Shown in pieces: positions 1 through 16,573 of a stretch of DNA of 64,000 nucleotides (the stretch's first letter is position 1; the number at the start of each line of letters is the position of its first letter). This DNA is from Pneumocystis sp. 'macacae' (Eukaryota; Ascomycota; Pneumocystomycetes; Pneumocystales; Pneumocystaceae), in assembly GCA_018127085.1 (NCBI GenBank), contig CM030730.1, forward strand, positions 399,501-463,500, in the 5' to 3' direction. The position numbers and the translations under genes are program-made. Under the pieces are notes generated by a model. The model saw only the letters and a program-made list of their open reading frames with translations. It had not been told where the DNA came from and did not search any database.

Positions 1-307
1 GTATGTATTCTGTACACGCATTGTATGCGTGTACATGTTTTTGTATGCGAACTGTATACGTATGTATGTTTAGCATGTGTATATATGCGTAGTACATCTA
101 TATATATGCATAATGTATGCATAGCATATGCATGCTACGCGTGTTGTATCATACTATACACAACTCCAGCACTAATAGTCTGCCAATTCATATTTGCCGT
201 TGTCAGTCGCAGATTGTTCTAAATGCTTGCAGTTTCCATACAGCTGTCTGCTTCAATGCCCTGTCCGTGGCGCATGTCGTGCTGCATGCGTCAGCCGCAT
301 TCCCTGC
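1..307. other. Gene-free left margin with alternating TGTATG/TATAC words
   Basis: No supportable gene is seen before the ATP18 stop. The first 160 bases are built from short alternating purine-pyrimidine words (TGTATG, GTATAC, GCATGC, TATATA). These words recur at 6.0-7.1 kb and again at 12.05-12.31 kb. From about 160 onward the sequence becomes an ordinary mixed-composition flank leading into the 3' end of ATP18. Confidence 0.6.
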
Positions 308-506
308 TCACTGTTTACCTCGCGGGTTCCGTGGATCGTTTGCATACGTCTCAGACTGCATCATTGCATCGGCAATCCGATATACCCCGTAAAACACAAT
401 GCCGCCTGCAATAAAGAACGGCATCAGCGGCCGACTGCCCCATCAGCTTGTATTTTCTGCTTTGTGCCTACCTGAATGCCGTCGGCCACTTCTTTCCCCA
501 CTGCAT
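308..506 (-). CDS. ATP18: ATP18, small subunit i/j of mitochondrial F1Fo ATP synthase
   Basis: This is a 53-residue protein from two exons, 472-506 and 308-434, joined across a 37-bp GTAGGC...CAG intron (435-471). The N-terminus MQWGKKWPTAF, then MPFFIAGGIVFYG, and the C-terminal YANDPRNPRGKQ match the known layout of Atp18: a short basic N-terminus, one membrane segment ending in FY(G), and a conserved NDPRNPR motif. Atp18 sits in the mitochondrial inner membrane in the Fo sector. Family length is about 50-60 residues, so the gene looks complete. The start ATG is the only in-frame one giving the family N-terminus. Thirty-five bases upstream of the ATG lies AGGGTTAGGG (542-551, plus strand). 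The codons are GC-rich, as in the next six genes. Splicing was inferred by hand. Confidence 0.85.
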
Positions 507-1043
507 TGCTTTGTTCGAGACACTCATTCACCACATGCATCAGGGTTAGGGCACTGTTGCCGTGGAAACGACTCCTGACTAGGTTCTGTGCACGAATTGT
601 CTCCGCCGCGCCTGCACCAGTCGTGCACAGGCCTTGCCTGGCTGTGTCTGGACCACCCTGCACTGCAGCAGCGCTGCCCAGCGGGCCAGGTCCAGATGGA
701 TTCGCCACGGCGGACCCCAGAAGGCTGCGCAGGGCTGGGGCCGGCAGACGCACACTGCATAGGGCCAGGGCTAGGGCCTGAATGCACATGTGCAGGGTTA
801 GGGCGGACACTGCACGGCCACTCGGCAGACTGGTCCGTGCTGCTTCCAGGGCTAGGGTCAGGGCTGGTTTAGGGCTGGGTCTAGGGCCGGGCAGGGTGCA
901 TTGCCAGCGAGACGTGCGTGCAGGAGACAATGGCTACAGAGCAGCGCCGGACGGAGAGCATTGGAGACGCACTGAGCAGGTATCTGTGCTTCAGAGCAGC
1001 TCTGTCTAACAACACAGCCTCGAAGGCAGTGTTGCATCGCTGA
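507..1043. repeat. GC-rich gap with degenerate TTAGGG-like repeats
   Basis: About 540 bp between the divergently transcribed ATP18 and SPC19. No recognisable protein is seen in any frame. It contains many G-rich words on the plus strand: AGGGTTAGGG at 542-551, GGGCTAGGGCC near 766-777, AGGGTTAGGGCGG near 794-806, and a run of GGGCTAGGGTCAGGGC-type units at about 848-895. They resemble the vertebrate/fungal telomeric unit TTAGGG but are irregular and never form a long tandem array. Confidence 0.6.
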
Positions 1044-1695
1044 ATGCATGCAACTACAGGGTATGTGGAGTGTCTGCGTCCGAGACTGACCCTCCAGATG
1101 GAGCTTCTCTTGGGGACACTGGACGCTGGAATCGAGGACTTTGAACGCATCCAGCTCGTCCTCTCAGCCAAACGCGTACACCTGCTCCCCTCCCACCCAT
1201 TGCTGACAAAACAGCACTTCGACCTCGTCCCCGAGTCCGAGGTCCATGCTGCACACCACGAGCTGCAGCACGAAATCCGCCCACAGATACTGGCACTCCT
1301 TGACCGTGCCGAGGCTGCAATTGCCCGTGCAGAGCGCACCGAAAAGACCCTCCAGAGCCGTGCCGACCTCCAGTACTCCCGGCTCCAGCAGGCTGCCCTC
1401 CCGCGCCCCCCTTCCCCCACCGACCCCCCCGACCACGCACTCCGTGCCAGACTCCTTTCCCAGCTTCGTGCAAAGAAGCAGCGTCTCGCCTACACACTCG
1501 ACCGCCTCTCCCTCGAGGCCGAGCAGAGGGTATGTCTTCTGCCCTAACCCTAACCCTGCGTCAAGCCCTACCCTGCCCTGCCAAACCCTACCCGGCCTCC
1601 CTGGTCCTCTGCCTGACTAACTGATACAGCAGCGCGTCCTCAAAACCACCGCCCCGCCTGAACAGCCTCTCCCCGGCCCCCCCGGCGCCAGCTGA
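1044..1695 (+). CDS. SPC19: SPC19, DASH/Dam1 kinetochore-microtubule complex subunit
   Basis: Two exons (1044-1529 and 1630-1695) encode about 183 residues. The N-terminal helix YVECLRPRLTLQMELLLG is followed by the hallmark HFDLVPESEV and HELQHEIRPQILALL, which align with the conserved FxLVPExDV...ELxxEIxPxxxxLL core of Spc19. A coiled-coil, Arg/Gln-rich region follows. Spc19 is part of the ten-subunit DASH ring that couples kinetochores to microtubules. The 100-bp intron has GTATGT, a CTAAC branch and ACAG, and contains two CCCTAA units. The start may lie in an upstream exon, since TATGTGGAG is the first conserved codon set; ATG 1044 is in frame and simplest. The stop lies 22 bp from the convergent RAV2 stop. 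Confidence 0.8.
1530..1629 (+). repeat. SPC19 intron carrying CCCTAA telomere-like units
   Basis: Intron bounded by GTATGT at 1530 and GATACAG ending at 1629, with CTGACTAAC as a likely branch point. Positions 1542-1558 read CCCTAACCCTAACCCTG, followed by looser CCCTACCCTG-like copies. Here the C-rich strand is on the plus strand, opposite to most other telomere-like patches in this block. At 100 bp it is about three times longer than the other introns in the GC-rich genes. Confidence 0.7.
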
Positions 1696-1717
1696 CCCGC
1701 CCTCCGTCCGCTCTACA

Positions 1718-2925
1718 TCACCCCCTCTGCACACACCGCCCTCCCACACCCGTCTCCCCCCGCGCACTCTCCGCCACATACTGCCCAACAACCCTGATCT
1801 TCGCCCCAAACTCCCGCAGCTCGTTCTCCGCACCTGCCGCCTAAGCATCCCAGCCATGTGGTCACGTGACCTGCCTCTCAGCGCCTCGACCGCTGCAGCA
1901 AGACCCGCGTCCCCCGTGCAGACCTCGATCTGCTCGGCGACCTCTGTCTGTCTGCCGTCGACCGTGCTGTCTGCTGAGCATTTGGCCCAAAGACTCTCTA
2001 CATACACCACTGCCCGGTCTGCCGTCCTCAGTCCCAGCACTGCCAGCGCTGTGTGCCACCACCGGGCACCCGGCTGCCCCGCCAATCGACACACACTGAT
2101 GACAACCGCTGCCTGTCTCACCCCTATCCGGACACGTATGTGTCCCGGAAGCGCCGGCTCAAAGACCTGTGCTGTCTAGCGCGTCCCACACACTGTGCTA
2201 CTTGCATCGTTCGGCACTGTCTGTCCCTGCGTCTCTCCGCCTGCAAGCACCGCCCGTGCTGTGCCGGTCTCCGCCACCCACTCCTCCACCGTCTGCCGTG
2301 AGCCCGAGCACTTCCCCGGACACCCACCTTCCGGACACATTCCCACTGTACACACTCCCGCACACACACGTCTTCTGCACACACCGTCTCTGCAGAGCGG
2401 TCAGCAGAGTGGGTGTGCACAGAGTCTCTCCGCGGGTAGTCCGGGACACACCGTGTGTCCGCCTCCTGCACCGCCGCCCGCACCCGTGCCGCCGCGGCCG
2501 CTGCTGCTGCAACCTGCCGTCAGCCCGCCCTGCACCCGCCCCTACCTGCTCCAGCACCACTGCTGCACCGCCCCGCAGCCCCACAGGCCCCAGCCGCTCT
2601 CCGCTCCGGAACAGCACCTGCAGCCTCTGCCGTCAGCCTGCACACCACCACACACCCACCCATCGGACCACCCGTGCGCCCTCCCGCACCACCACACCCT
2701 TCAGCGCCTCGTTCTGCACCGACGACACTGCAAGCGTGCTTGTCCCAGACAGTGCCTGCCCGCACGTGTCCAGCAGCCTGTCTGTCTGCTGCCGGACACC
2801 CGGCAGCACCTCTCCAACAAGCCATCCGAGCTCTCTCTGCCATCAGCACTGTCTGTGCGCACACATACCTGTGCTGCTGCATGTGCCGTCTCTGTGCTCT
2901 GTGCCGGCCGTGCATTTCCCGACAT
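1718..2925 (-). CDS. RAV2: RAV2/ROGDI-family subunit of the RAVE V-ATPase assembly complex
   Basis: A multi-exon gene. Exon 1 (2869-2925) encodes MSGNARPAQSTETAHAAAQ; a 32-bp GTATGT...GGCAG intron follows. The next exon reads RELGWLVGEVLPGVRQQ and LAVSSVQNEALKGVVVREG, the Rogdi/Rav2 opening pattern (RELxWLxxxxLP...LxLSSxxxEALKG). Later come VEEWVAETGTARAVL, VFEPALPGHIRVRI (the family FxPxLPxxLxVxxxI strand), and the C-terminal ENELREFGAKIRVVGQYVAE. Rav2 works with Rav1/Skp1 to reassemble the vacuolar proton pump. Introns of 31-42 bp, several ending CTGACGGCAG, separate the parts. The junction near 2340-2430 is unresolved, and the last intron probably uses a GC donor. The gene starts only 18 bp from the putative COQ4 ATG. 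Confidence 0.7.
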
Positions 2926-2943
2926 CGTCTGGTCTCTCGACAC

Positions 2944-3650
2944 ATGGGCTGCGCCGGACATGTCCCGCTGCCGCCCATAGCGCGCGCCGTCCTCGGGGTC
3001 GGCGCTGCTGCTGCGCTCTCCAGCAATCTCCGCCGCGCAGACCTTGTTGGCATCCTTGCTGAGCTGACTGCGCTGCCCTGCGTCCTCCGTGTCCTCCACG
3101 CACAGATGCTTGCGTGCCGCGACGGCCGGCGGCTCCTGCGCGAGCAGCCCTGCCTGGCTGCTGCTCTTGCACACACTGCTGCACTCCCCCCGCTCTCGCT
3201 GGGCCGGTCGTATGCCGAGTGGATGGCGCGCCACCGCCTCCGCCCCGACTCCCGCGGCTCCGTCCGCTACACACCCAATCCCGAGTGGGCATACATTCTC
3301 CAGCGCTACCGCGAGTCCCACGACCTCTACCACGTCCTTGCTGGTCTGCCTGCGACGCTTGAGGGCGAGACTGCGCTCAAATGGTGCGTCCTGTCCTGCG
3401 GCTGTGCTGACTCTGCAGCCTCGAGTTCTGCTGCCTGCGCCTGCCGATTGCCGGCCTTGCAGCTGCCGCCGGCGCATGGCGGCTGCCGCCCGCTGCGCGG
3501 CACCGGCTGTGGACGCGCTATGTCCCGTGGGCACTGCACACCGCACAGCATGCACGGCCGCTGCTGACTGTCTGCTGGGAAGACGAGCTTGCAGCAGACC
3601 TCGACGCAGTGCGGGCGCGGGTGGGCGTCCGGGCAGCGCCCGGACAGTGA
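2944..3650 (+). CDS. COQ4: COQ4, coenzyme Q biosynthesis scaffold/decarboxylase protein
   Basis: Exons 2944-3383 and 3419-3650 encode 223 residues, joined over a 35-bp GTGCGT...CTGCAG intron. GHVPLPPIARAVLGVGAA and RRADLVGILAELTALP open the domain. Then LGRSYAEWM, RYTPNPEWAYILQRYRESHD, and the metal-binding motif HDLYH-x11-E (HDLYHVLAGLPATLEGE) are all present and intact. The C-terminal exon has RLWTRYVPWALHTAQ and WEDELAADLDAVRARVGV, typical of Coq4. The protein acts on the matrix face of the mitochondrial inner membrane in the CoQ synthome. The N-terminal targeting peptide is not obvious from ATG 2944, so an upstream exon is possible. It ends 12 bp from the convergent PDCD5 stop. Confidence 0.88.
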
Positions 3651-3662
3651 CGCAGTGCGCCG

Positions 3663-4023
3663 CTATGTGTCGTCGTCGTCGGAGCGGCGGCGGTACTGCA
3701 GCAGTCAGCGCAGCACAGACAGGCGACGCACAATGATCCGCGTCTGCGGCGCAGGCTCGAGGCTGTGGAGCAGAGCGACAAGTCCAGAGTCAGAGAGTCT
3801 GTGGGGGAGAGAGCCGGCACGGGCCATGGCAAGGACGAGGTCCTCGGCAGCACGGGCACGGTCGGGGTGGACGAGGGCAATGCGTGCAAGACGGTCGCGG
3901 GCAGGAGGCTCGAGGACCTGGGAAAGCTGCCGTCAGCACAGGGACAGAAGGGCATACCATTGTGCGGCGGGCATCGGAGGCACGAGGAGACTCGTCAGAG
4001 TGTGGGGGGTGAGCGGGATCCAT
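3663..4023 (-). CDS. PDCD5: PDCD5/TFAR19-family DNA-binding protein
   Basis: Three exons, 3958-4023, 3732-3926 and 3663-3695, encode 97 residues. The introns are 31 bp (GTATGC...CTGACGGCAG) and 36 bp (GTGCGT...CTGCTGCAG). The core MLSQVLEPPARDRLARIALV followed by HPDRARAAEDLVLAMARAG matches the PDCD5 three-helix bundle consensus (LxQILEPEAxERLxRIxLVKPExA). The spliced C-terminus RIIYRRRSDDDDT matches the family ending (xFNRRK...DEDDD), which is what fixes the last intron. Family members are small nuclear/cytosolic proteins linked to chromatin and, in animals, apoptosis and chaperonin binding. It is a little shorter than animal homologues (about 125 residues), mainly at the N-terminus. It is head-to-head with SEC2 (43 bp). 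Confidence 0.82.
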
Positions 4024-4066
4024 GCGGAGGGAGGGCGGGGCAGCGAGATGACTGCGCACACAGAGG

Positions 4067-5347
4067 ATGGAGGGCGCAGTTGCACGGGAGGTTGAGGTCC
4101 TAAGCACAAAGCTTGTGGCGTCGATTGAGAAGCAGGCGACGCTTGAGGACGAGAAGCACTGGCGGGAGGCAGCGCTGGACCGGGCGCGGGTGCGGATTGG
4201 GGAGCTGGAGGCAGCACAGCGGGACTGTGTGGAGCGGATGGCACAGGTCCTGGAGGAGAAGCGGGGGGCAGAGGAGGAGACACAGGCACTGATGGGGCGG
4301 CTGGTGGAGGAGACGCAGCAGCGGGCAGCAGCAGAGACGGAGAAGCAGGCGATGGAGAGGGAGCTGGAGGAGCTGACGCGGACGCTGTTTGAGGAGGCAA
4401 ACGAGATGGTGGCAGCAGCAGAGGATGCACGGGGGCGTGCAGAGCGGCGGAGCACGCAGCTGGCGGCACAGCTGGAGGAGGCTGTGCGGCTGCAGCGGTC
4501 GCAGCAGGCACAGCTGGAGGAGCTCAAGGGGCTGCTGGCGGCGGGGGAGAGGGCAAGGGCTAGGGCAGGGGGCAAGCTGGAGAAGGGTAGGGCAGGGGTT
4601 TGGGTTGGGGAAGGGGTTGGGGGGGTTGGGGGAAGGGTTAGGGGAGAGGGGGGAGAGGACAGGGTTGGGGTTAGGGACGAGGGCGGGGGGGAGCGGGTGC
4701 TTCGGATGGACACAGCGGCGTTTGAGGAGCTGCAGGAGTTTGTGAGGGCGGCGGGAGAGAGGGGGCGGGGGGGGACGTTCTTTGGGCTGGGGAGCGGGGG
4801 GTGGATGAGGGAGTCGAAGTTTGTGAAGCGGTGCATCTACGAGGACATTGAGCCGACGCTGCGGCTGGACAGTGCGCCGGGGCTGTCGTGGCTTGCACGG
4901 CGGGGGATGTTTTCGGCGGTGCTGGAGGGGCAGCTGGTGATTGAGCCGGGGAAGGTGGGGCGGGGGGGGATAGAGTGTTCTCTGTGTGGGAAGAGCTGCA
5001 CAGAGAAGGGGAACCGGCGGGTGCACCGGTTCCGGACGTCGGAGGCACAGCAGGGGATGAAGTTCTACTATCTGTGTGGATACTGTCTGGGGCGGGTGCG
5101 GAGTGTGTGTGACTTTGCGGGGTTTCTACGGCAACTGCGGGACGGGGTGTGGCGGGGGGGTGGGGATGGGGGGCGGCGGGTATGGGAGGAGACGGTGCGG
5201 CTGCGGGAGGCGATGTTTTGGGCGCGGATGGGGGTGGTGGAGGGGGGAGAGGGGCACAAGGGGGTGCCGCACTCAGCAGGGCTGGTGGAGGACAGTGCAG
5301 GGGCAGAGGATGCGGTTGCAGGTGTCCAGCGGGCACAGAGTCTGTAG
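4067..5347 (+). CDS. SEC2: SEC2-type Rab guanine-nucleotide exchange factor
   Basis: A single open frame of 426 residues. Residues about 1-165 form a long coiled coil with ELEELTRTLFEEANEMVAAA, the Sec2/Rabin8 helix that opens the Rab (Sec4/Ypt) nucleotide pocket. Residues about 245-360 hold KFVKRCIYEDIEPTLRLDSA and GLSWLARRGMFSAVLEGQLV. A Cys-containing part (CSLCGKSC, HRFRTSE, YYLCGYCLGRVRSVCDFAGF) and RLREAMFWARMGVV follow, as in filamentous-fungal and fission-yeast Sec2-like proteins. It drives exocytic vesicle polarity. The linker between the coil and the C-terminal domain (about 4555-4690) is coded by degenerate GGGTTAGGG-like DNA and reads as Gly/Val/Arg/Glu-rich low complexity. A spliced-out intron there cannot be excluded. 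Confidence 0.85.
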   Translation: MEGAVAREVEVLSTKLVASIEKQATLEDEKHWREAALDRARVRIGELEAAQRDCVERMAQVLEEKRGAEEETQALMGRLVEETQQRAAAETEKQAMERELEELTRTLFEEANEMVAAAEDARGRAERRSTQLAAQLEEAVRLQRSQQAQLEELKGLLAAGERARARAGGKLEKGRAGVWVGEGVGGVGGRVRGEGGEDRVGVRDEGGGERVLRMDTAAFEELQEFVRAAGERGRGGTFFGLGSGGWMRESKFVKRCIYEDIEPTLRLDSAPGLSWLARRGMFSAVLEGQLVIEPGKVGRGGIECSLCGKSCTEKGNRRVHRFRTSEAQQGMKFYYLCGYCLGRVRSVCDFAGFLRQLRDGVWRGGGDGGRRVWEETVRLREAMFWARMGVVEGGEGHKGVPHSAGLVEDSAGAEDAVAGVQRAQSL

Positions 5348-5698
5348 GGCTAGGGTTTGCTGCATGGCAGGGCCTGTGCAGTTAGGGTTGGGTATGGGCA
5401 GGTATGATGGATGCTGTTGCGGGTGTCCGGCCGAGACGGTCGGCTGAGTTTGGCTGCGGGTAGGGAGGGCGTGGAGGGCTAGGGTTGTGTATGGGTTAGG
5501 TCAGGGTTAGGGCGGGCGGAAGGGCGGGATGCAGTGAGATGGATGCTGCTGGCCTGGCGCAGCAGCACGGGGACGGGCTGAGCAAGCCATGCATGTACAT
5601 AGACGCGGTGTTGATGCCGTTTTATACATAGTTTGGGTCTTTGATGACGGTGCTTTGCAGGCCCGCAATGCTGTTGGGGGCGGTGCACAGTGGTGTTG
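5348..5698. repeat. Convergent 3' gap with TTAGGG-like repeats
   Basis: A gap of about 350 bp between the convergent SEC2 and BCL7-like stops. Patches of GGGCTAGGG, GTTAGGGTTGGG and TCAGGGTTAGGGCGGG occur at 5346-5395 and 5455-5520, G-strand on plus. No gene is seen. At about 5585-5605 the CATGCATGTACATAG word of the alternating-sequence class also appears. Confidence 0.6.
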
Positions 5699-5995
5699 CT
5701 AGGCGCTTTCCGGCGCAGTGGGTGCAGCGGATGGAGCAGACTCAGCGGCGGGCACGGACAGCAGGGCGCGGTCGTCGGTGTCGTGGTCTGGGGCTTTTGC
5801 AGATGCATCGGTGGTCTCGGGGTCCTTTACAGGGACCCAGCAGAGCGTCCTGAACGACGCATTTGTCTCTGTTTTGCCGTCTTTTGTGTGGACCTGGTGC
5901 GTGACCCATTCCTGCCGCCATTTCTGGGGGATAATGTCGAATTCAGTGCTGCCGGTGACAAAGCGGCCTTTTTCTGCGCGTGCACGAGTGCTCAT
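5699..5995 (-). CDS. BCL7-like small protein (possible chromatin-remodelling accessory subunit)
   Basis: A 98-residue single-exon frame. The N-terminal MSTRARAEKGRF and then FDIIPQKWRQEWVTHQ, followed by ASFRTLCWVPVKDPE, resembles the BCL7 N-terminal conserved region (RAETRSRAK...KWEKKWVTVG...LRIxKWVPV). The rest is a disordered Ala/Ser/Pro/Asp tail. In animals BCL7 proteins are SWI/SNF (BAF) subunits; whether the fungal relative has the same role is inference. Codon use is GC-rich but less extreme than SEC2. The family call rests on about 45 aligned residues and could be wrong, although the open frame with this conserved-looking block is probably real. Confidence 0.55.
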   Translation of the reverse strand: MSTRARAEKGRFVTGSTEFDIIPQKWRQEWVTHQVHTKDGKTETNASFRTLCWVPVKDPETTDASAKAPDHDTDDRALLSVPAAESAPSAAPTAPESA

Positions 5996-7182
5996 TTGGC
6001 GGACGTGTCGGGCGTTCTATGGTTTTCTGCTGCAGATGCACACGATGCTGACAATCAATATGCATATACCGCGCATATAGTATGCATGTGTGCACACGAT
6101 GTGGACCAAGTTGCAGGATATATACACAACACATACGGTCTACATGTAAAGCAGATACAGATGCACATGCACATGCACATACAGATGCATATACTGTGCA
6201 TATACTATGTATGTACGCAGCATATACGCTGGACACGCTGTGGCATAAACATGTATAGATTCTATGGGACGGGTATGTCAGGTGTTAAAGAGAGCGTATA
6301 GAATACGCATGATATATACAAAGTGTAAAGTGTATTCCGATGCAGCCTGCATCAGTGGTGTATACGGCATATGCTGCATTGCCTGTTGTATGCGCACAGC
6401 ATATATATGGGGGGAGGGGGTTTCCGGCAGGCTAGCAGGCTGTGCAGGTTGTCTGTATTGTATATGTTATGGCGTGTATATTGTACTCTGTGTACTGTAT
6501 ATATTGCATTGTATATATTTTGCATGTCTTGTGCAATGGACCTCCAGTATAGCGCCTGTGCACTGTATATACAGTGCATGTGTTGCATAGACACAGTATG
6601 CATACTGCTGTCTTGTTTTGGAGTACATGTGGATTTCCGGTTATACAGCGCATATACAACAGACAGCACAGATAACACATAGCATATATAATATATATAA
6701 CACGTATAATGTATATAACACATAATATATATTCTGTATATATTGAATATCTGATGTGCAAAGCATAGGCCACGACTGCTGATGTGCATATGCATTTATT
6801 TATTCAAAATGCACACGTTCTTGATAGAGCATACTTAGGACACTGTAGCACTTAAAGATCTGTTGATATAATCCGCTGTTGGTAAAATGCACACAATACG
6901 AGTTACATATGAAGCGCATCGAAGCGCCCTATAATGGGACACAGAAATTGGATAAGGGCGCTTGGACACAGCAACAGTGAGACGCATATAATTAGTACGA
7001 CTAAGCTTTCAAGTGCATATATACATAGAAGTGTACGGAGAAATGCATATAATCAGGTATTTCTACGTATTTGATCAGTGTTTAGGGATTAATGGATTGG
7101 AGGGGGAGAGTGATATATTATTGAAAGATTGACGAGCATTTATCGATCGTCAAAAATGGATTTTAATTGAAAAGCACTGGTT
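5996..7182. repeat. Alternating purine-pyrimidine (TATAC/GCATAT) tract
   Basis: About 1.2 kb without a supportable gene. From about 6040 to 6800 the sequence is dominated by overlapping words such as TGCATATAC, TGTATATATTG, ATACAGATGCACATGCACATG and CATATATAATATATATAAC, on both strands, with many short palindromes. Frames open across it, but they encode only Tyr/Ile/Cys/His runs of the repeat and are not credible proteins. A perfect 9-bp inverted repeat (6922-6930 with 6955-6963) follows. GC falls from the GC-rich block to intermediate values across this segment. Confidence 0.7.
6922..6963. other. 9-bp inverted repeat, 24-nt loop
   Basis: AAGCGCCCT at 6922-6930 is the exact reverse complement of AGGGCGCTT at 6955-6963. 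The arms are GC-rich in otherwise AT-leaning DNA. It could fold as an RNA or DNA hairpin. It matches no tRNA or snRNA that I recognise. Confidence 0.4.
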
Positions 7183-7912
7183 ATGTCGAAAATAGGGCCA
7201 AATAAGGGGGATTTGGACCTTCTGATGGAGGACCTTATGTCACGGATTGCATCTGTTGAGCAGGTTTTGCTGCAACTGAAATCGAATGATTCAAATAGTT
7301 TGTCAGAAATGGTAGCAAAACTCTCGGTTTTAGACAAAGCAAAATTCTACGTGGGGTTAAGTTACGCGATTAATTCGCTTGTTTTTAGTAAGTTCTGTGC
7401 ATCTGTTTTTTTTTGGGGTTTAAGGATGTTTTAGTGAATCTCAAACTAAACCGTGTGGATACGAAGGAACATGCAGTGATGAAAGAGCTTGAGAGGGTTC
7501 AGCTGTATGTTAGCAAGATAAAGGAAGCAGAGGCGGTTTTGTCTAAAAGTGAATTTATCTTTTTTTATAGTTTTGGCTTATAAAATGTCTAGGGACGATG
7601 GTATTGGATAAACAGGCGGTGGACCGAATGATTACTCACGACTTATCTGAGAATGCAAGGATAGACAAAAACAAGGAATCTGTAGATAAAAGCCTGAAAG
7701 GCCGGAAAACCCCACTAAAAAAGGGTATTCATATAAGATTTGATACGGAAAATACAGAATCTTTGATTAATACAGATAAGTTGATACAGACTGATCTACT
7801 AGAAATCCAAGATGCAAAAACGAACATGACAAAGAATATAAAACGCGAGAAGGATTCTGAGACACTGCCGAGTATTCTAACCGCAAGATTGTTTTTAAGC
7901 TCTAATGAATAA
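7183..7912 (+). CDS. LRP1: LRP1/RRP47 (C1D family), nuclear exosome cofactor
   Basis: Exons 7183-7387, 7435-7548 and 7593-7912, with 47-bp and 44-bp introns (GTAAGT...TTTTAG and GTGAAT...GTCTAG). The N-terminal helix pair ends in KFYVGLSYAINSLVFMNLKL, then NRVDTKEHAVMKELERVQLY and KRTMVLDKQAVDRMITHDL, matching the Sas10/Utp3/C1D fold (YAINSLYxMYLxxxGxDxKxHPVxxELxRI). A Lys-rich tail follows. Lrp1 partners with Rrp6 at the nuclear exosome for 3' maturation of stable RNAs. The frame was used to choose the second acceptor (TTTTAG) over the earlier TTTAAG. Base composition is intermediate between the GC-rich block and the AT-rich core. Confidence 0.82.
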
Positions 7913-14813: not shown

Positions 14814-16573
14814 ATGCAGCCATGCCATAAAGAACCCAGTTCGACTATCATTGGAATTCGAATGGGTAATGCAAATAGTTCTATTTCTTATACAAATGAG
14901 GTTTGATATTTTTTTAAAATCCGTTAAAATATAAATTTAATAAATATTTAGAATGGAAAAGTTGTTATTATTACAAATGAAGAAGGGGAACGTCAAATCC
15001 CATGTGCTCTTTCATATCTGGATGGAGAGGAATATCATGGTTCTCAGGCAAAAGCACAACTTATAAGAAATTCAAGAAATACAATTATTTATTTTAAAAA
15101 TTTTTTTGGAAAAAAGTGAGTTTTAGAAATTAAAAAAAAAGCACATGATTAATTATTAGAATTGAATGTATTGATTTGTATACTTTGGGATATTCAGCAG
15201 AACCTAGTATTTCAAATGGTGAAATAGTCTATACAATCATGTCTGCTTCTGGAGATGAATATGAAAAACAAATAATTACTTTGAATGAAGTTATGATTTC
15301 TCATTTAAAATATTTAAAGAAATGTGCAGTGGAATATATAGGAAAAGATGTTACCGGTTCAGTTTTTACTGTTCCTGCTGATTTTTCTCTTTTACAAATA
15401 GAGCTTTTAAAAAAATGTGCAGAAAAAGCTGATTTAAATGTTCTTCAAGTTATAAAAGAGCCTATTGCAGAGATTTTGGCATATTCAGATGGTATTGACT
15501 CTTCAATTACAACTGATAAAATATTTGCTGTTGTAGATTTTGGGGAAACAACAAGTAGTGCTACTGTTGTCGTATGTAGAAATAATCTATATACGATTTT
15601 AGCAACGGAAACTGATCATAATTTGGGAGGAAGATTTCTAGATGATTGTCTTATTGAACATTTTGTAAAAGAATTTCAGAAAAAATATAATTTGGATCCT
15701 AAACAAGATTTAAAAGCTATTGCCAAATTAAGAGTTGAATGTGAAACAGCTAAAAAAAGCTTAAGTTCTAGTAATGTCTCTGTAATTAGTGTCGAATGCA
15801 TGTTTAATGGATATGATTTTTATTCTACTATAAACAGAGTGCGTTTTGAAATGTTAGGAAGACATATTTTTAATAAAATGCTCGCGCTTGTGAAAAGTGT
15901 TCTCAGAAAAGCTCAAGTTGAGGGTTTTGATATAGATGAAGTAATTCTTGCTGGAGGTTCTTCTCATATACCTAAAATTTTAGAGATATTTAGGTATATT
16001 TTTCCAGAAAAAACTCTAATTCGTGCACAATCTTTACAAACTTCTATGTTTAGTCCTTCAGACATTGAATGTTATGGTGCTGCAATTCAAGCATCATTAA
16101 TATCTTCTTTTAATAAAGAAGAAGTTTTGGACTTAACAAATCCCAATATCACTTTAATACCGCATTTATTAAATCCTATCGGTGTTGTCATTCAAACTGA
16201 CGGTAAAACAACATTTATTCCTATAATTTATTCCTATACATCAGTACCTGTTCAAAGGAGCATTTTTCTTGACGGACTTTTCGATACTGGTGATTTTTGT
16301 ATCATTATTTCTCAAGGGATAGCTCGTGTCGATCAAAAAAATGTTGAAACACATGAAACACAAACTTTTGATAGCGATGACTTGCATTTGGAGGGACAAT
16401 TAAGGTTCATAGAACCATCAGAAAAAATAGCTGAATGTGTTCTTAAAAACATTCCATCTAATGCAAAAGTACAGGTTACTATTTGCATAGATCTTGAATT
16501 GAAAACTACTATTATAGTACAACTTGTTTCTCCTTTTCATGCAGAACTTGTTAAAGGTGAAATATTTATATAA
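14814..16573 (+). CDS. SSZ1: SSZ1, atypical ribosome-associated Hsp70
   Basis: Exons 14814-14900, 14952-15115 and 15160-16573. The N-terminus STIIGIRMGNANSSISYTNE, EEGERQIPCALSYLDGEEYH and RNTIIYFKNFFGKK are an Hsp70 nucleotide-binding domain with the altered phosphate loops of Ssz1. VFTVPADFSLLQIELLKKCA, VIKEPIAEILAYSDG, LGGRFLDDCLIEHFVKEF, ILAGGSSHIPKI and CYGAAIQASLI follow. The C-terminal part (residues about 390-555) is short and divergent, as in Ssz1, which lacks a normal peptide-binding cleft. Ssz1 pairs with zuotin as the ribosome-associated complex to stimulate Ssb on nascent chains. The total of about 554 residues fits the family (about 540). Confidence 0.87.

Follow-up and report, generated by a model that had tools for sequence, protein, structure and literature searches.

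Why should a block of intact, conserved genes with GC-rich codons stand in an AT-rich Pneumocystis genome? The window analysed here, a stretch of 64,000 nucleotides of Pneumocystis sp. 'macacae' (positions 399,501-463,500 of contig C11), is an internal part of a 482,530-base contig. In 1-kb windows, its GC content is 0.55-0.69 across positions 1-6000, then drops to 0.41 (6-7 kb) and 0.32 (8-9 kb); the rise starts to the left of the window, at about 398.75 kb of the contig, and GC increases towards the block on either side. Island edges were set at GC > 0.52 after 400-bp smoothing, giving the following features.

1..5973, no strand: GC-rich island (C11:399,232-405,473), its first ~270 bases lying left of the window
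1..3555, no strand: left half, C-rich on the plus strand; between the island's left edge and its centre, GC skew is -0.21
3555..3555, no strand: island centre, the cumulative GC skew minimum, inside COQ4 exon 2
3556..5973, no strand: right half, G-rich on the plus strand, GC skew +0.40
311..427, minus: ATP18 exon (ATP synthase j chain) at the island edge; Pfam ATP-synt_J, E=1.5e-18
1044..1547, plus: SPC19 (DASH complex) ORF in the left half, start putative; Pfam DASH_Spc19, E=2.6e-24
2636..2842, minus: RAV2/Rogdi N-terminal exon with an open frame around it; Pfam Rogdi_lz, E=3.8e-9
2944..3650, plus: COQ4, exons 2944-3383 and 3419-3650, intron 3384-3418; Pfam Coq4, E=1.1e-40
3708..3932, minus: PDCD5 exon in the right half; Pfam dsDNA_bind, E=1.5e-17
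4067..5347, plus: SEC2, a single ORF of 426 aa; Pfam Sec2p, E=5.3e-20, and RAB3A-like_C, E=6.6e-12
5699..5995, minus: ORF earlier named BCL7-like, without Pfam support
15176..16573, plus: SSZ1-like Hsp70 ORF, the AT-rich control outside the island; 100% identical to PMAC_000641 of Pneumocystis sp. 'macacae'

The preliminary description had recognized seven genes in a GC-rich block of what it took to be a Pneumocystis genome. The SSZ1-like ORF identifies the genome as that of P. macacae, and the block of intact genes is real, as judged by the 1-kb GC profile, third-position GC and Pfam matches. Six of the seven names are supported, since the BCL7-like ORF (5699-5995) matched no Pfam family at E<=1. 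GC at the three codon positions is.79/.57/.75 in COQ4,.75/.49/.78 in SEC2 and.75/.42/.70 in SPC19, whereas three AT-rich control ORFs have a third-position GC of.26,.15 and.21, which bears out the contrast drawn earlier with the genes farther on. The ATP18 exon, at the edge, has a GC of 0.50. The enrichment (0.62 in the left half, 0.66 in the right) touches exons, flanking DNA and the 35-base COQ4 intron (66% GC) alike, and the spliced 223-aa COQ4 product retains, as had been claimed, an intact HDxxH-x11-E, which we take to be the COQ4 motif.

The block is native to Pneumocystis. In a one-gene tree, SEC2 lies within a 100/100 Pneumocystis clade, adjoining a Logan protein and P. canis; for this gene, then, the placement in an unrelated fungus that the preliminary description had allowed for is not what was found. 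The locus tags of SEC2 and SSZ1 are seven numbers apart in each of P. murina, P. canis and P. carinii, from which we take the neighbourhood to be conserved, and the two genes are ~10 kb apart in the window. The named P. jirovecii COQ4 (P0002) is also GARP-rich, and a near-identical Logan copy (P0001) has a GARP/FYMINK ratio of 2.23; the absence of other Pneumocystis COQ4 proteins from the matches listed is uninformative, because at most ~8000 candidates were scored in each protein search. That the contig is chimeric or contaminated, or that the block came by horizontal transfer from a GC-rich fungus, is barely credible, as the break in composition and nothing else speaks for it, and these findings, the climb of GC from both sides and the one polarity shared by numerous islands (see below) speak against it.

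Within the island, protein evolution has been faster and directional. The GARP/FYMINK ratio of SEC2 is 2.96 in P. macacae vs 0.59-0.74 in P. murina, P. carinii and P. canis, and GARP gains outnumber losses 27:4; for SSZ1, the five species compared all fall within 0.42-0.54. Similarly, P. macacae SEC2 is 46% identical to that of P. murina vs 62% for P. canis, and the corresponding values for SSZ1 are 64% and 63%. Thus, in this comparison of one island gene with one control gene, P. macacae SEC2 evolved faster, towards GC-coded amino acids, and SSZ1 did not.

The preliminary description had suggested a position near a chromosome end. However, ~77 kb separate the island from the contig's right end and 399 kb from its left, and hence it is internal, so that a subtelomere is rejected, and similar islands stand on many contigs. 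The window block is indeed one of many islands in the genome of P. macacae, a fungus of macaque lungs: a scan for G7 runs found, among the matches listed, 24 clusters of at least three runs on contigs C1-C8. The scan covered 100 of 182 A-list rows, 100 of 133 T-list rows and 93 of 93 C-list rows, of which 223 of 293 were retained as interior; from each contig, the initial 20 kb was excluded. C1, C2, C3 and C6 received manual right-end limits, C4, C5, C8, C11 and C14 were cut 20 kb short of the end, and C7, C9, C10, C12, C13, C15 and C16 were taken without a right-end limit. The seven islands read in sequence span about 2.7-6.2 kb, with a GC of 58-68% per half (15 other stretches of C11 have 24-33%). 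Their mean GC profile is bell-shaped, rising from 0.33 to 0.67 and falling back (n=4-7 islands per bin), and decays over ~2.5 kb on each side. The genes that they hold are conserved and of unrelated functions, for example COQ4, SEC2, a URA3-like gene and ribosomal proteins.

The most informative feature of these islands, missed by the preliminary description, is an antisymmetric GC skew. Island calls and mean profiles were centred on the cumulative skew minimum, which by itself favours a minus-plus order; the skew test was therefore redone at the geometric midpoint, a split point chosen without reference to skew. There, the left half is C-rich and the right half G-rich, with GC skew of opposite signs, in 7/7 islands, and none of 2000 block shuffles attained the observed value in any of the seven. 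Among the matches listed, all 20 G7 clusters with runs on both strands follow the same order (152/152 pairs), four islands being common to the two sets; the remaining 50 of 70 clusters, 24 of them single runs, are one-strand only and so silent on strand order. Along C11, strong minus-plus islands score 0.32 and 0.31, above background. The reverse order occurs in AT-rich DNA with scores up to 0.24 (383.3 kb), so the score of a weak minus-plus site (0.25 at 341.4 kb) does not set it apart from background; the raw differences include negative values down to -0.62. This fixed strand asymmetry is a new finding: among the literature matches listed, with subscription papers and supplements outside their scope, no report of the islands or of their strand skew was found, and the main texts of PMC10327204, PMC4764891 and PMC7940399 do not contain the term 'GC-rich'.

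The skew is set by position in the island and is independent of gene strand. At 4-fold sites, plus-strand skew is -0.51 and -0.47 in the left half and +0.73 and +0.56 in the right, for genes on the plus and minus strand, respectively, with a 4-fold GC of.73-.75 in all four classes. Third-position skew is as predicted by half in 21 of 22 coding stretches, the exception being COQ4 exon 2 (+0.12), which spans the centre; stretches of URA3, UCH and MRPS12 also span a centre, and skew is near zero in UCH and MRPS12. In the window island, the coding strand of SPC19 is C-rich (GC3 0.71 and third-position skew -0.39 in the Pfam stretch) and that of SEC2, in the right half, is G-rich; the RAV2/Rogdi exon has a third-position skew of -0.61 on the plus strand, and PDCD5, although a minus-strand gene, has 4-fold sites that are G-rich on the plus strand all the same (G26 C10).

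That selection acted on particular genes to favour GC-rich codons, expression or chromatin, as the conserved genes of the islands might suggest, is highly improbable, given that the functions are unrelated, the COQ4 intron and flanking DNA are GC-rich too, and skew follows position rather than gene strand. It is decidedly unlikely, too, that the islands are centres of divergent, R-loop-forming transcription, perhaps non-coding and perhaps meiotic. CpG-island promoters and R-loop regions carry GC skew with a sign change, and the islands resemble them in being GC-rich with a skew that flips sign at a point; moreover, a non-template strand G-rich in the outward direction would match the observation. 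However, the islands have no matching divergent gene layout. Plus-strand genes with C-rich third positions lie in left halves (SPC19, COQ4 exon 1, ABC, RPS26 and LSM), minus-strand genes with C-rich coding strands lie in right halves (PDCD5 and a UCH exon), and in four of the seven islands (COQ4, URA3, UCH and MRPS12) the centre falls inside a Pfam-matched coding stretch. Unseen transcripts would be required.

Could the islands instead be unusually efficient replication origins, whose outward leading strands accumulate G? The geometry fits: G enrichment lies on the outward strands, the centre is marked by an upward jump in skew, and upward skew jumps are known at mammalian origins. However, an origin would be expected to leave skew along the replicon, and mean GC skew is within 0.1 of zero past ~3 kb from the centre, although forks travel further. 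In addition, the GC rise from ~0.33 to 0.67 is left unexplained, and about three clusters per contig (24 on C1-C8, among the matches listed) are sparse for origins, those of S. pombe being far denser. We consider this reading quite unlikely.

A purely mutational, strand-asymmetric process, such as error-prone break repair, that raised GC without any conversion bias would account for the skew directly, and in humans break repair is mutagenic and strand-asymmetric, as far as the available part of PMC7615360 describes it. Nevertheless, a strong AT-to-GC mutation bias would be required, and the human polarity, as we read it, would be opposite. Y-family translesion polymerases, our first candidate for the source of the skew, found no support: the genome has no match to PF00817, though split genes could be missed. 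Altogether, such a process is unlikely. In 18 of 20 distance bins, mean AT skew stays within 0.09 of zero; it reaches +0.15 and +0.16 in the two bins immediately right of the centre. At 4-fold sites, AT and GC skew agree in sign in each of the four classes, AT skew being weakest (-0.09) in left-half minus-strand genes. A model with transitions only is rejected by the AT skew just right of the centre and at 4-fold sites. Matches to UDG/TDG-type and HhH-GPD glycosylases are present in the genome and prove nothing.

GC-biased gene conversion acts at recombination hotspots in yeasts, mammals and birds. We suggest that the islands are probably long-lived recombination hotspots with GC-biased, strand-directed repair; GC-biased gene conversion, offered by the preliminary description as one possible cause, gains support as the likely one. 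Each island would be a long-lived site, in all likelihood a meiotic hotspot, at which DNA has repeatedly been broken and repaired from the homologue and GC-biased gene conversion has raised GC, and the bell shape, ~2.5 kb per side, may mark the reach of resection and conversion tracts. As in such hotspots, AT-to-GC enrichment affects coding, silent and non-coding sites alike, and accelerated directional substitution occurs inside the island (SEC2) and not outside (SSZ1). The mirror-image skew implies that one repair step would be strand-specific: on both sides, G would be gained by the strand running 5'-3' away from the centre, and C by the strand that, given a break at the centre, would be left as the 3' overhang, our leading guess at the source being strand-directed mismatch correction of heteroduplex. 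We infer three things: breaks fall at the centre, the process belongs to meiosis, and the bias comes from biased repair instead of mutation. The genome has a gene of the SPO11 type (TP6A_N, PF04406) and Rad51-family loci (PF08423) on C12 and C3. More tentatively, and with somewhat less than even confidence, we propose that recombination in primate Pneumocystis is confined mostly to a few dozen sites fixed for tens of millions of years, where a strand-directed repair bias writes the geometry of the site (C-rich 3'-overhang strand, G-rich outward strand).

Several points count against the hotspot reading. Classical GC-biased gene conversion is strand-symmetric and predicts no skew, but the islands are mirror-image in 7/7 and 20/20 cases; hence we speak of a variant working like GC-biased gene conversion. 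Budding yeast hotspots sit in promoters, unlike the four of seven centres in coding stretches, and words of k=6-9 within 300 bases of the seven centres included none above the off-centre control that could serve as a shared motif. If the centre is the break, the polarity is opposite to what loss of C from the overhang strand, our reading of the human data (PMC7615360), would produce. Also, in the part of PMC9001825 available, a mouse annealing assay with strand bias found mismatch type to be of little influence.

The islands can be compared with known systems, each as far as the accessible part of its source goes. Like hotspots of GC-biased conversion and the GC-outlier clusters of gerbils, they combine local AT-to-GC drift with faster directional protein change in several discrete regions per genome; the gerbil regions, however, are defined in 1 Mb windows, and their 'GC skew' is an AT-to-GC bias and not the fixed mirror-image skew of G vs C between strands found here in islands of a few kb (PMC7403616). 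Mutation at human hotspots is strand-asymmetric in the 2 kb flanks, an asymmetry absent from the central 100 bp, and the islands are likewise two-sided, strand-specific over ~2 kb per side and symmetric in the middle; yet the human effect is one of mutation rate on rare variants, whereas in the islands it is whole base composition, with a polarity that looks opposite (PMC7615360). Pneumocystis centromeres are also few-kb genic regions of unique sequence, but those of P. murina and P. carinii have a GC on average 3.9% lower and number one per chromosome, whereas the islands have ~2x the surrounding GC and number several per contig, and a centromere is rejected (PMC10327204).

If the hotspot reading is true, the recombination map of a fungus that is hard to culture and cross would be legible in its sequence. 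Because the geometry would be written into the bases, one genome would suffice to read off break sites, resection reach and relative heat, and host-specific species could be compared for the age and movement of their hotspots. Its strand-specific part would also be a direct clue to the still disputed mechanism of GC-biased conversion. Moreover, conserved genes such as COQ4, SEC2, the URA3-like gene and those of ribosomal proteins can evolve fast and GC-ward for non-adaptive reasons, which can mimic selection and mislead single-composition phylogenies. We expect missed annotations among island genes.

Telomere-like repeats occur in both halves of the window island:

1543..1557, minus: telomere-like tract in the left half (CCCTAACCCTAACCC on the plus strand), read from the sequence
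4602..4654, plus: degenerate telomere-like G-rich repeats inside SEC2, in the right half, from TRF and sequence reading

The G-rich strand is enriched for the motif GGGTTAGGG, possibly a trace of telomerase activity at extended repair ends.

The GC-rich stretches (islands) of the Pneumocystis macacae genome carry a mirror-image strand skew of fixed polarity, which, as far as our searches show, is a strong and unreported feature, no report of it having been found among the papers listed. In all seven islands read in sequence (two on contig C11, two on C14, and one each on C8, C5 and C4), the plus strand has an excess of C in the left half and of G in the right half. These islands measure 2.7-6.2 kb, and each half is 58-68% GC; for one C14 island, the locus read was 5 kb long and its ends may lie partly outside. 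When islands were split at their geometric midpoint, skew was -0.23 to -0.47 on the left and +0.27 to +0.46 on the right, and the left-right difference was matched by none of 2000 shuffles of 100-base blocks in each of the seven. With the centre chosen by skew (the minimum of cumulative GC skew), mean GC is 0.33-0.37 at a distance of 3-4 kb, reaches 0.67 in the middle and declines again on the other side; with that same choice, mean skew peaks at -0.43/+0.43 at 1-1.5 kb and is less than 0.1 from zero past ~3 kb.

The same polarity is found in runs of seven G (G7), searched with three words and counted at interior places only. There were at least 223 such places in 70 clusters, 32 of which hold three or more runs (24 on C1-C8, where all three G7 listings are complete). 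In each of the 20 clusters with runs on both strands, all C-runs lie to the left of all G-runs (152 of 152 pairs; chance probability 7e-21 with strand labels shuffled within clusters). Since four islands are common to both sets, 23 distinct islands share one polarity. In a scan of 183 kb of C11, the island in the window (0.32) and the second island (0.31) rank highest for antisymmetry of this polarity; a third point, at 341.4 kb, scores 0.25 at 40% GC, on a par with the top reverse-polarity score seen in AT-rich DNA (0.24). The surrounding C11:340-342.5 kb (locus L006), with 41-44% GC per kb and a minus-plus skew of 0.25 that is within the reverse-polarity background, is perhaps a young or mild island.

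A gene-strand effect is ruled out as the source of the skew by 4-fold sites, where plus-strand skew has the same sign for genes on both strands in each half: -0.51 (plus genes, 328 sites) and -0.47 (minus genes, 356 sites) in left halves, and +0.73 (508 sites) and +0.56 (86 sites), respectively, in right halves. All but one of 22 coding stretches match their half in the sign of third-position skew, the lone exception being COQ4 exon 2 (+0.12), which spans the island centre.

The preliminary description had reported a GC-rich gene block at the left of an AT-rich window, and this is confirmed: third-position GC is 0.70-0.78 in SPC19, COQ4 and SEC2, whereas three AT-rich ORFs have 0.15-0.26. High GC extends even to the COQ4 intron (35 bases, 66%). 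Pfam backs ATP18, SPC19, RAV2/Rogdi, COQ4, PDCD5 and SEC2, but not the BCL7-like ORF. The suggested chromosome-end location does not hold. The window covers positions 399,501-463,500 of the 482,530 bases of C11. Reading leftward along this contig, the GC rise starts at ~398.75 kb, to the left of the window, and the block is therefore an internal island, at 399.2-405.5 kb, ~77 kb short of the right contig end. The genome totals 8.27 Mb in 19 contigs, versus the 16 scaffolds from Nanopore and Illumina sequencing given in PMC7940399. Beside the island, an ORF at window 7598-7912 weakly resembles the Pfam model of the MEIOC meiosis coiled-coil, at an E of 0.014 that misses the cut-off. By eye, the island edges (window 1-150 and 6050-6800) show alternating purine-pyrimidine sequence with many ATGCATATAC-like words.

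The block is native to P. macacae, and the idea of a chimeric contig is rejected by the position of SEC2 within Pneumocystis and by the locus tags of SEC2 and the AT-rich control gene SSZ1, which are 7 apart in relatives.

SEC2/SSZ1 locus tags in relatives (SEC2-SSZ1 distance in macacae, ~10 kb)
P. murina: PNEG_00858/00851, 7 apart, contigs of equal size
P. carinii: T552_00825/00832, 7 apart, contigs of equal size
P. canis: PCANB_002226/002219, 7 apart, longest contigs listed differ

One of the window's AT-rich ORFs matches PMAC_000641 of Pneumocystis sp. 'macacae' at 100% identity, which makes this the P. macacae genome. After self, SEC2 matched in order an unnamed database relative (first Logan protein, 62%), P. 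canis, a second Logan protein, P. carinii and P. murina. In a tree of 17 proteins, out of 120 listed of 380, Pneumocystis is a single group (100/100); macacae pairs with the first Logan protein (100/100), likely P. jirovecii, and canis is next (92/93). The program warned that long branches meet at the Pneumocystis/Saitoella join and that letter make-up deviates in four rows, including macacae. The COQ4 search gave two relatives at E<=0.001, P0001 and the named P. jirovecii P0002, to which macacae COQ4 is 53-60% identical; SSZ1 is 79% identical to P. jirovecii. Identities this low set the genome apart from P. jirovecii.

SEC2 has also shifted towards GC-coded residues in macacae, as measured by the ratio of GC-coded to AT-coded residues (GARP/FYMINK) in gap-free alignment columns. 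For SEC2, this ratio is 2.96 in macacae, 1.48 and 0.92 in the first and second Logan proteins, 0.74 in canis, 0.60 in carinii, 0.59 in murina and 1.63 in Saitoella; for SSZ1, it is 0.42-0.54 over the five Pneumocystis compared. In SEC2, macacae and murina are 46% identical, and canis and murina 62%; in SSZ1, the values are 64% and 63%. At SEC2 sites fixed in canis, carinii and murina, GARP gains/losses were 27/4 in macacae and 20/7 in the first Logan protein. For COQ4, the ratio is 5.71 in macacae, versus 2.23 in P0001; by eye, P0001 and P0002 are almost identical where they overlap. Because the residue bias of SEC2 and COQ4 is also seen in jirovecii-like relatives, GC bias at this locus is probably older than the P. 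jirovecii/P. macacae split (~62 million years ago, PMC7940399), judging from one island gene, one control and, for jirovecii, protein composition. After the split, it probably ran on mainly in macacae (SEC2 branches of 0.63 versus 0.051 for the Logan partner; shared stem, 1.02).

GC-biased gene conversion, already put forward as a cause, is the best frame for the islands, with the strand skew as an addition. Most likely, a two-sided process begins at the island centre, reaches ~2.5 kb, lifts GC throughout and handles the two strands unequally. Meiotic break repair matches this geometry: PMC7615360 describes single-stranded DNA on the forward strand left of the break and on the reverse strand right of it, 1-2 kb each. 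SPO11-type and Rad51-family genes were found in the macacae genome, and PMC4764891 reports mating and meiosis genes, with their transcription, in P. murina, P. carinii and P. jirovecii. Within 1.5 kb of centres, the G-rich strand is.44 G,.21 C,.18 A and.16 T, a composition that can be read as a rise in G and C alike, with surplus G added on the outward strand; the joint gain would be ordinary GC-biased conversion, and the surplus is the new component. Human-type overhang mutation would, as we read it, give the opposite skew sign. Y-family DNA polymerase (PF00817) had no match in the whole macacae genome, and 11 of 14 control genomes were positive; the genome may have lost its translesion polymerases, or introns may break them up too much for a match.

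On their G-rich strand, the seven islands (31 kb) together have 23 copies of the telomere-like word GGGTTAGGG, versus 1.8 expected (maximum 8 in 200 simulations) under an order-3 model, which may fall short on G-run structure. It occurs four times on their other strand and is absent from 185 kb of background, where AT-rich composition leads to few being expected. The excess may reflect telomerase acting where breaks are repaired, sites bound by a protein, or drift in G-rich DNA.

A scan for an A with 15 G/C letters after it yielded 83 places, grouped by eye into ~30 internal sites on most contigs; it also picks up a contig-end repeat and poly-C/poly-G tracts, and is insensitive, since it finds none in the window's own island. 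Pfam families in or beside islands, a partial list from the longest open frames, are orotidine decarboxylase (URA3-like), C97 peptidase, kinase, ubiquitin hydrolase, SWIRM protein, methyltransferase, ABC transporter, S12/S23 ribosomal protein, chloride channel, bromodomain protein, ribosomal S26e, LSM protein and zinc finger (below cut-off). By eye, these genes are ordinary, with no common theme evident. Poly-C/poly-G tracts of at least 15 lie at C6:520751, C10:17585, C13:16013 and C14:19667, three of the four <20 kb from a contig start. The GC-rich 16-mer ACCGCCCGCGCCGCCC occurs at eight places.

Places of the 16-mer ACCGCCCGCGCCGCCC
C3:306
C4:553178
C8:480296
C10:472873
C13:6509
C15:374640
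C16:10593
C16:338695

At least five of these (C3, C4, C8, C13 and the C16 start) are within ~11 kb of a contig end, pointing to a shared subtelomeric element.
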